Both the position numbers and the translations under genes were made by a program. The notes beneath the pieces are model-generated. The model ran no database searches. It saw nothing but the letters and a program-made list of their open reading frames with translations, and had not been told where the DNA came from. From Parasphaerochaeta coccoides DSM 17374 (GTDB taxonomy: Bacteria > Spirochaetota > Spirochaetia > Sphaerochaetales > Sphaerochaetaceae): 64,000 bases of DNA. Positions within the stretch are counted from its first letter, which is position 1, and each line of letters opens with the position of its first letter. Positions 57,147 to 59,947 of this stretch are shown here, piece after piece. The stretch covers positions 1,984,001 to 2,048,000 of the forward strand of contig NC_015436.1 in NCBI RefSeq assembly GCF_000208385.1. The letters run 5' to 3'.

Positions 57147-57508
57147 GGGAACTGAATGAACATACTGTCTTTTTTTAGCCGGTTTTTCTGGTGTCTTTCG
57201 ACTGTTTCCTTGAGGGGAGTCCGATATTTTTTGGACAACAGAACTGGGAATGTCGCAAAAGCTTACGGCATCTTCCTTTTCTTCATAATCTATATTTTTT
57301 CATGTCACACGCTTAAAAACGAATCGGCAGACAATATTAACATCTAAAATCGTCAAATAACCCAAAAGTATTATATGGTTTTCTCTGCTTTTCATGCAAA
57401 ATCATACCTTTGGGTAATAGCAAACTGCCATCACCATGTTTATACTATTTCCTAATTACTACCATATGCGTAAGCTGGCATGTCATCATCTTCTTCACGG
57501 AGAAAACA
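57147..57508 (+). other. Upstream region of the RCC1 lipoprotein gene
   Basis: About 360 AT-rich bases with no convincing gene. A 7-base inverted repeat ACCCAAA/TTTGGGT (57360-57366, 57409-57415) and a TATACT -10-like hexamer (57441-57446) without a good -35 are the only signals. The plus-strand frame at 57156-57347 looks spurious. Confidence 0.5.
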
Positions 57509-59947
57509 ATGAGAGAGAGAGAGAGAGAGAGAGAGAGAGAGAGAGAGAACGAAAATCTGAGAGATCTGCGTATGAACAAATCTAGCAGACCAGGCTTTAT
57601 AGTTCTTACGACCATTCTGATACTACTTGTTGCCTTTGTTTCATGCGCTGACAAACCGAACGTTTCAAGCTCCAACACAATACGCTTCATCTCCGAGATA
57701 GGACGCAAGGCCACCGCTGACTCCGGCTGGAGTATCGGGGACGCGGTCGGCATCTATATGGTGGAGGCCGGTGAGGACGTGGCTACTGTCGCCGCGACCG
57801 ACCGTGACAATGTGCAGTACGTGGCAGATACGGCGGGCATCACCTTCTCCGGCTTCTCCCCTGTTGACGCCTCCAACCCCTTGAAGTGGGATGACATCTC
57901 CACCCCTGCCATCACACACTTTGACTTCATCGCCTACTATCCCTATGTATCATCCATCGCTGATACCACGGCTCTACCCATACATGTCTATCCACTTGGT
58001 TCCGGGGAACAGGATACCGGAAAGGCCGACTTCCTGTGGGGGAAGAAGGCTGGTGTCCAGAACAACACCTCTACGGTCAGCCTGACGCTCAGTCATGCCC
58101 TCTCCCGCCTTGTTGTCAACATCTCTCCGAGTACCACCGTTGATAAGGATGCCATCACGGGCGGTACGCTTGTCGCCACTGTCACGGGCATGAACACGCA
58201 GGCAACAATCGACCTGGACAGCGGAGATGTGGCTCCTGTCGTTCCCAGCGACATTGATGTCGTCATGAAGGACATCTCCGGCACGCTCACAGAAGCGGAG
58301 AGGACTGCGGGCAAGCGGCGGTATGAGGCCGTGTTGATACCGACGGACAACACTACCGCCCTGTCCTCCCTTGGTCTGCGTTTCACCTTGGGTGGCGAGA
58401 CATATGAATGGGCTGCTTCCAGCGTAGCGTCCTCCGATGAGTACAGGATTGTCTTGGAAAGCGGCAAGACTCATGTCTACAACATGACGCTCAATACGGC
58501 GGCGGATAAAGTCGCCGTCGCGGAGATTCTCATAGGGATAGTGGACTGGGACACCGGGAGCGGAGTAAACGGGGCAGCGGAAAAGGCATACCGCCTTTCC
58601 TTTGACGGCAACAACGCTACAAGCGGTACTGCGCCGGGAGCGATACTTGCTCATGGGGGAAGCCAGGTCACACTGTCGGCTCCTGGAACGTTGGAAAAGG
58701 ATCTCCATTACTTCTACGGATGGAATACTCTGCCTAATGGCAACGGAACCCACTATGCCGTTGGTGAGTCCTTCACCATGCCCGCCGATAACGTGACGTT
58801 GTATGCACAGTGGCTGGTGAAGGTCGTCAAGTCAGTTTCCGCCGGAGGTTATCACACGATGATTCTGAAGACGGACGGCACGCTCTGGGCGACTGGATAC
58901 AACTATGATGGTCAACTGGGTGTCGGTGATAATACCGACAGAAGCACACCCGTACAGGTCAAAGCCAGTACCGCTGCCGACGACTTCATGACTGATGTCG
59001 CGGATGTCTTCGCTGGAGAGAGCCATACGATGATTGTAAAGAAGGACGGCACGCTCTGGGCAACGGGATACAACAACCATGGTCAATTGGGCGTCGGTGA
59101 TGACATAAGCAGAAGCACGCCCGTGCGGGTCAAGGCCAGTACCGATCCCGACGACTTCATGACTGATGTCGCGGCTGTCTCCGTCGGAGGTGGGCACACG
59201 ATGATTTTGAAAAAGGACGGCACGCTCTGGGCGACTGGATACAACTATGATGGTCAACTGGGTGTCGGTGATTATAACGACAGAAGCACGCCCGTGCCGG
59301 TTCCATCCATGAATACTGATCCAAACAATCCTGTCGTGGCCGTCTCCGTCGGGTTTTCCCACACGATGATCCTGAAGAAGGACGGCACGCTCTGGGCGAC
59401 TGGATCCAACGGAGAGGCTCAACTGGGTGTCGATGATAACCTAAACAAAAACACGCCCGTGCCGGTTTCGTCCATGGGAAATCAGGTCGCGGCAGTCTCC
59501 GCCGGAGAGACCCATACGATGATTCTGAAGAAGGACGGTACGCTCTGGGCGACGGGATACAACGGATACGGTGAACTGGGTCTAGGCAGCAGCAGTTTGG
59601 GAACCAACATAAGCACGCCCGTGCCGGTTCCATCCATGAATACTGATCCAAACAATCCTGTCGCGGCTGTCTCCGCCGGAAAGCTCCATACGATGATTGT
59701 GAAGAAGGACGGCACACTCTGGGCGACTGGACTGAACGATTCTGGTCAACTGGGTGACGGCGATAATACCGACAGAAGCACGCCCGTGCAGGTCAGTTCT
59801 AATGTCGAGGCTGTCTTCGCCGGAGGTTATCACACGATGATTCTGAAGAAGGACGGTACGCTCTGGGCGACTGGAAACAACTGGGCTGGGCAACTGGGTG
59901 TCAGTGATAATACCAATAGAAGCACGCCCGAACAGGTAGTTTTCTGA
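57509..59947 (+). CDS. RCC1-propeller surface lipoprotein with fimbrillin-like domain; start followed by (GA)19
   Basis: An 812-residue frame from ATG 57509 (GGAG 7 bases upstream). The first 21 codons are made largely of the GA repeat (RERE...), then MNKSSRPGFIVLTTILILLV with lipobox VSC. Residues after the cysteine form a fimbrillin-like domain (GDAVGIYMVEAGEDV, FDFIAYYPY, LTLSHALSRLVVNIS), then an InlB-type B-repeat (LSFDGNNATSGTAP to ADNVTLYAQW), then exactly seven RCC1 repeats (about 438-812) forming one predicted propeller. ATG 57572 is an alternative start with GAGAG upstream. The GA copy number decides the frame: 19 is in frame. Probably a secreted adhesin-like lipoprotein; acquired Bacteroidota sequence is possible. 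Confidence 0.8.
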   Translation: MRERERERERERENENLRDLRMNKSSRPGFIVLTTILILLVAFVSCADKPNVSSSNTIRFISEIGRKATADSGWSIGDAVGIYMVEAGEDVATVAATDRDNVQYVADTAGITFSGFSPVDASNPLKWDDISTPAITHFDFIAYYPYVSSIADTTALPIHVYPLGSGEQDTGKADFLWGKKAGVQNNTSTVSLTLSHALSRLVVNISPSTTVDKDAITGGTLVATVTGMNTQATIDLDSGDVAPVVPSDIDVVMKDISGTLTEAERTAGKRRYEAVLIPTDNTTALSSLGLRFTLGGETYEWAASSVASSDEYRIVLESGKTHVYNMTLNTAADKVAVAEILIGIVDWDTGSGVNGAAEKAYRLSFDGNNATSGTAPGAILAHGGSQVTLSAPGTLEKDLHYFYGWNTLPNGNGTHYAVGESFTMPADNVTLYAQWLVKVVKSVSAGGYHTMILKTDGTLWATGYNYDGQLGVGDNTDRSTPVQVKASTAADDFMTDVADVFAGESHTMIVKKDGTLWATGYNNHGQLGVGDDISRSTPVRVKASTDPDDFMTDVAAVSVGGGHTMILKKDGTLWATGYNYDGQLGVGDYNDRSTPVPVPSMNTDPNNPVVAVSVGFSHTMILKKDGTLWATGSNGEAQLGVDDNLNKNTPVPVSSMGNQVAAVSAGETHTMILKKDGTLWATGYNGYGELGLGSSSLGTNISTPVPVPSMNTDPNNPVAAVSAGKLHTMIVKKDGTLWATGLNDSGQLGDGDNTDRSTPVQVSSNVEAVFAGGYHTMILKKDGTLWATGNNWAGQLGVSDNTNRSTPEQVVF
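57511..57548. repeat. (GA)19 dinucleotide repeat directly after the start codon
   Basis: Nineteen uninterrupted GA units begin within the codon after ATG 57509. One unit more gives a stop TGA at 57558 (original coordinates), one unit fewer a stop TAG at 57583, so only copy numbers 19 plus or minus multiples of 3 read through. Confidence 0.97.
58823..59947 (+). repeat. Seven near-identical RCC1 repeats
   Basis: Seven repeats of 43-58 residues, each with HTMI(L/V)K(K/T)DGTLWATG. Several DNA blocks are nearly identical, for example the segments following 59287 and 59617, which invites in-frame recombination. Confidence 0.9.

Follow-up and report, generated by a model that had tools for sequence, protein, structure and literature searches.

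A GA repeat at the start codon of a lipoprotein gene is very probably a translational switch, one of 24 such loci in Parasphaerochaeta coccoides

Introduction

Does the run of GA units that directly follows the start codon of a lipoprotein gene in Parasphaerochaeta coccoides act as a switch of its translation, and is the gene alone in this? The organism, given in a published table as Sphaerochaeta coccoides DSM 17374 with a genome of 2.23 Mb and 50.6% G+C (PMC3726837) and now placed as Parasphaerochaeta coccoides in the Sphaerochaetaceae, is a termite hindgut bacterium according to the title of its genome paper, as cited in PMC3726837. The locus lies in a stretch of 64,000 nucleotides with 52.5% G+C, here called the window, and the genome searched consists of a single contig of 2,227,296 bp. 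A sequence-only reading of the window had proposed that the repeat is a phase-variation switch of a single RCC1 surface lipoprotein.

Results

The locus lies on the plus strand. A GGAG Shine-Dalgarno (SD) sequence at 57499-57502 is separated by 6 bases from the start codon ATG at 57509-57511, and leaders of the SD type are found also at the other array loci. The (GA)19 array, the putative switch, occupies 57511-57548 and follows the ATG immediately, the G of the ATG being the first G of the array. The gene (57509-59947, 812 aa) has the signal peptide and the in-frame lipobox of a bacterial lipoprotein, with the Cys codon (..LLVAFVSC) at 57644-57646. Pfam assigns to it a fimbrillin-like domain, Mfa_like_1 (PF13149, E 1e-36), at 57710-58513, a Listeria-Bacteroides repeat (PF09479) at 58589-58810, and RCC1 repeats in seven PF13540 stretches at 58826-59938. 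For the SD sequence, the start codon, the 19 units and the in-frame signal peptide, the earlier coordinates proved right to the base.

The array is a pure tandem repeat inside a coding region with a unit that is not a multiple of three, as in known contingency loci. When copy numbers of the window gene were simulated, full-length protein was obtained only with 16, 19 or 22 units (810, 812 and 814 aa, respectively), and a change of (GA)19 by one unit truncated the protein. The stop codon at 57558-57560 is met at 17, 20 and 23 units and that at 57583-57585 at 15, 18 and 21 units, which reproduces both off-frame stops given by the sequence-only reading. Its claim that the sequenced copy is in the on state holds as well, since 19 units read through to the full 812 aa; the gene is accordingly annotated here as predicted ON.

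A pattern search for GA arrays of at least 6 units returned 24 genome-wide, with T as the preceding base in every case; a search for the other possible left context gave 0 matches. The preceding triplet is ATG at all 24. The chance of a preceding AT at every array is about 10^-29 (p = 1/16 each) under an assumption of independence that paralogues violate. Coincidence is thus ruled out as the cause of this placement. Each locus reads ATG(AG)n, then a lipoprotein signal peptide, then a long gene, and the genes are paralogous lipoproteins with a fimbrillin-like domain, usually with RCC1 repeats. Since paralogues recombine, the 24 arrays do not amount to 24 independent origins. The earlier proposal of a switch in front of an RCC1 surface lipoprotein stands in its design and falls in its singularity, the window gene being one of 24. 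Other dinucleotide arrays of at least 6 units were absent from the 326 kb of this genome that were examined.

The arrays hold 10, 11, 13, 14, 14, 15, 15, 16, 16, 17, 17, 17, 18, 19, 20, 22, 24, 26, 26, 30, 30, 32, 37 and 48 units, where the counts of the long arrays may be wrong in the assembly. Older sequencing platforms are prone to errors in long dinucleotide tracts, which would speak for the arrays being an artefact of assembly or sequencing. Against this, the arrays stand at 24 places with differing flanks in a single-contig genome, and the array-less paralogues retain a short seed of the repeat, so that an artefact is barely conceivable.

The lipobox Cys is in frame with the array ATG at 6 of the 24 loci (L011, L013, L024, L025, L026 and L027, the last being the window gene) and out of frame at the other 18. 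The split among the three frames is 6/9/9, as if random (chi-square p 0.69). By contrast, all 18 array-less paralogues of the family, including the short gene L043, whose SD is weak, and the truncated gene L048, have an SD and a start codon in frame; the difference between 18/18 and 6/24 gives a Fisher p of 5e-7, which is approximate because the genes are paralogues. As in the opa and hop families, there are several paralogues, each with a repeat of its own, in mixed states (6 on and 18 off by frame).

With 18 of 24 genes out of frame relative to the array ATG, one might take the off genes for decaying pseudogenes and the tracts for inert microsatellites. The mature frames are, however, intact in all 24 genes (676-952 aa), and dN/dS across the first 330 codons is much the same in the two states (0.41 for pairs of off genes, 0.37 for pairs of on genes), at a median dS of 0.53 between array genes. 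The genes behind off-frame repeats are thus intact and under purifying selection, as at contingency loci, and the arrays are pure. We rejected decay of the off genes on these grounds and regard the pseudogene explanation as highly improbable.

Purity also bears on the turnover of the arrays. About 1,014 array bases contain one clear internal interruption (L026), whereas the genes differ at synonymous sites by about 0.5 per site. At such divergence a static tract would have decayed, which argues that units are being gained and lost. Moreover, loci with an identical 59 bp behind the array differ in unit number, with 30, 37 and 48 in one group and 14, 15 and 22 in another. These shared flanks support slippage but give no rate, because gene conversion also spreads flanks. 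From such patterns slippage looks ongoing, and the off states do not look dead. Genes for MutS and MutL are present in the genome. Both proteins would damp slippage at dinucleotides, which counts against a switch; their presence also led us to reject loss of mismatch repair as the cause of the arrays.

The identity of the start codon was approached through the array-less paralogues, which begin with ATG AGA GAG AAT AAA TTA.. (MRENKL..) or with GTG AGA AAG AAC... On alignment, the array ATG proved homologous to this ordinary start, so that the array grew inside the N-terminus, as an expansion of the AGAGAG seed. The same homology is the main argument that ATG 57509, and not the internal in-frame ATG at 57572-57574, is the native start.

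Translation from ATG 57572 regardless of GA number, with the array lying in the leader and at most tuning the level, is an alternative to be weighed. The peptide that it would start, MNKSSRPGFIVLTTILILLVAFVSC, qualifies well as a lipoprotein signal peptide, GAGAGA (57559-57564) lies 7 bases upstream, internal in-frame ATGs occur at 24 of 24 array loci, and the off-frame stops lie close to them. Set against these points are the paralogues that start at the codon aligned with the array ATG, the retention of that ATG at all 24 loci, and, in genes with the long leader, a stretch from array to internal ATG that remains open in the protein frame. In about half of the array genes, furthermore, the internal ATG gives MVFLTILMLLITFISC, without a positive n-region, and a lysine lies upstream of that ATG. 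In the short-leader type (..GAG AGT AAA CTA AGC GTC ATG GTC TTC..) the internal ATG would yield a signal peptide without positive charge, whereas in the type of the window gene it would yield a good one; since GAGAGA also lies seven bases upstream in the latter, ATG 57572 is a possible secondary start, and leaky internal initiation is possible there. Re-initiation at it might also give the third level that the sequence-only reading proposed. We consider exclusive use of the internal start unlikely.

Two further features of the leaders were observed. L020 (G000:C1:1453507), an array gene, has ATGs in two frames in its leader (ATGACAATGAATGAGAG..), so that two of its three copy-number classes might be translated. 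In the array-less GTG-start paralogues L036, L037, L040 and L042, the SD is a stretch of G that differs in length and reaches 8 G; it could itself lengthen or shorten and so tune translation.

The genes have a mosaic look, in that two types of leader are variously combined with two types of signal peptide, as would be expected if the arrays served mainly as shared sequence for recombination or gene conversion among paralogues, with frame effects as a by-product. This explanation leaves unexplained both the position right after the ATG and the in-frame rule of the array-less genes, and the 171-bp RCC1 repeats already provide long shared sequence. We hold it to be quite improbable as the main function; a role in recombination is compatible with switching, not exclusive of it.

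An inverted repeat common to the array genes lies upstream. In the window, its left arm, ATACTTTTGGGTTAT on the minus strand, is at 57357-57371 and its right arm, ATACCTTTGGGTAAT on the plus strand, at 57404-57418. The consensus is about ATAACCCGAAAGTAT ... ATACCTTTGGGTAAT. Its right arm lies 105-119 bp upstream of the ATG, and the short spacer has two lengths that differ by about 10 bp, or one helical turn. The right arm is present at 24 of 24 array genes, one with a one-base deviation. Searched genome-wide with at most 1 mismatch, its consensus gave 76 matches, compared with 3 for the reversed control. Where the surroundings of a match are known, it mostly stands in front of a gene of the GA-array group or of the 8-base lipoprotein group described below. 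The simplest reading is that the dyad is a shared, putative operator. An invertible promoter at this repeat was considered and rejected, because the spacer never stands in the opposite orientation at the array loci.

Another candidate repeat switch lies on the minus strand of the window. The array (GTCCCAGA)21 at 13200-13372 comes after ATG 13377, the start codon of a further gene for a fimbrillin-like lipoprotein. This gene is out of frame (OFF) at 21 units and would be in frame with 19 or 22. The genome holds only one other GTCCCAGA array (L103, 14 units, in frame, ON), and L051, a homologue of the gene at ATG 13377, carries one GTCCCAGA unit at the same position. Since these 8-base arrays sit at the same place with a different unit, the design originated twice. 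The reading as a switch is less firm in this group, because its internal ATG is preceded by an SD-like sequence (GGAGG in L051). Adjoining the 8-base locus, the gene at 13671-14777 (minus strand) contains an 18-bp in-frame tandem repeat of 12.6 copies (E-P-M-D-E-[PS]; 13766-13991), which, being a multiple of three, would give length variation only.

Of 139 genomes of the family, this one included, no second one contains ATG(GA)8. The family genomes also lack a close relative of the N-terminal domain, the matches there being to the Listeria-Bacteroides repeat region. Since no family relative examined has it, the array set may have arisen or spread recently. In 392 genomes of the phylum, a shorter pattern gave 1-5 matches in each of six others, and the matches that were read fall outside this lipoprotein family. 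One of these six, a spirochaete of another family, has at L094 a lipoprotein gene in which a good SD precedes the ATG and (GA)10 follows it; a GA array at a start codon may have arisen independently there. A protein scan of genome contigs gave matches to the RCC1 part only, in Elizabethkingia and one metagenome genome.

Discussion

The GA array of the window is very probably a translational contingency switch, one of 24 loci of the same design. The phase-switch reading originally made for one gene is now backed by the paralogues of that design, the random frames, the intact off genes and the start-codon homology. In living populations, the (GA)n tract would gain and lose units through slipped-strand mispairing during replication. 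With a 2-bp unit between start codon and signal peptide, one third of the copy-number classes would read through to a product of the form MRERER...-signal peptide-lipoprotein, and the other two thirds would terminate after a peptide of 10-33 residues. The tract itself never yields a stop, because GA on the coding strand gives AGA and GAG codons only. If the 24 genes are expressed and switch separately, the surface lipoproteins could be combined in as many as 2^24 ways, all apparently governed by one common upstream dyad. Presumably, the products would be exposed at the cell surface, where they may serve in adhesion or in escape from host or phage.

Comparable designs are known from several bacteria. 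The opa genes of Neisseria carry CTCTT pentamers in the signal-peptide region. N. gonorrhoeae has 11 phase-variable opa genes (PMC11868660). Like opa, the present set is a multigene surface family with a separate repeat near the 5' end of every coding region; frameshift switching of each gene on its own and combinatorial expression are known there and are proposed here from sequence. Unlike opa, with its 5-bp unit and beta-barrel products, the 24 genes have a 2-bp unit right after the ATG and encode fimbrillin-like and RCC1 lipoproteins of a spirochaete. In Helicobacter pylori, hopZ, oipA, sabA and babA have CT repeats in the 5' coding region (PMC3960876), which are likewise dinucleotide repeats giving slipped-strand ON/OFF states in genes for adhesin-type surface proteins. 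The difference lies in coding-strand CT and a handful of genes there, against GA, up to 48 units, 24 genes and another protein family here. Pfam reveals no homology to the Opa or Hop families, only Mfa_like_1, List_Bact_rpt and RCC1, and the best reading is that the set may work like these families and is not a member of them.

The mod gene of mmyCI in Mycoplasma mycoides contains (AG)10/12, and clones with different counts were found (PMC3498834). It resembles the present genes in having AG repeats in the coding region with the frame set by copy number, and differs as a single restriction-modification gene from a surface family. The candidate phase-variation tracts of Treponema pallidum are homopolymers and act mostly on transcription. 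Homopolymer-tract candidates such as tprL (PMC7864442) tie spirochaete surface-protein genes to phase variation through simple repeats, as here; in contrast to such homopolymers, the present tract is GA and adjoins the start codon in a large family of lipoprotein genes.

The sequence-only reading knew of no description of such a switch in this group, and we found none either: the literature searched yielded no paper on Sphaerochaeta with phase variation, which is weak evidence as most subscription papers lie outside its scope, and, within the same scope, none on RCC1 with phase variation and lipoprotein. The mechanism is of a known kind, and the family, its size, the host group and the path from seed to array are new as far as checked.

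Since array-less, seed and expanded paralogues coexist in one genome, one can trace here how a contingency locus is born from a start codon (ATG AGA GAG ..). For the wider picture we see even chances: a commensal spirochaete of the termite-gut type would own one of the largest repeat-switched sets of surface lipoproteins known (24 GA and two 8-base genes), grown de novo from start-codon seeds under one common operator and used perhaps for phage defence or niche switching. Most known surface families that are large and switched by repeats belong to pathogens and commensals of vertebrates, where evasion of adaptive immunity is the usual explanation. So extensive a set in an apparent termite-hindgut spirochaete, outside the reach of adaptive immunity, would raise the question of what else selects for combinatorial surface variation.
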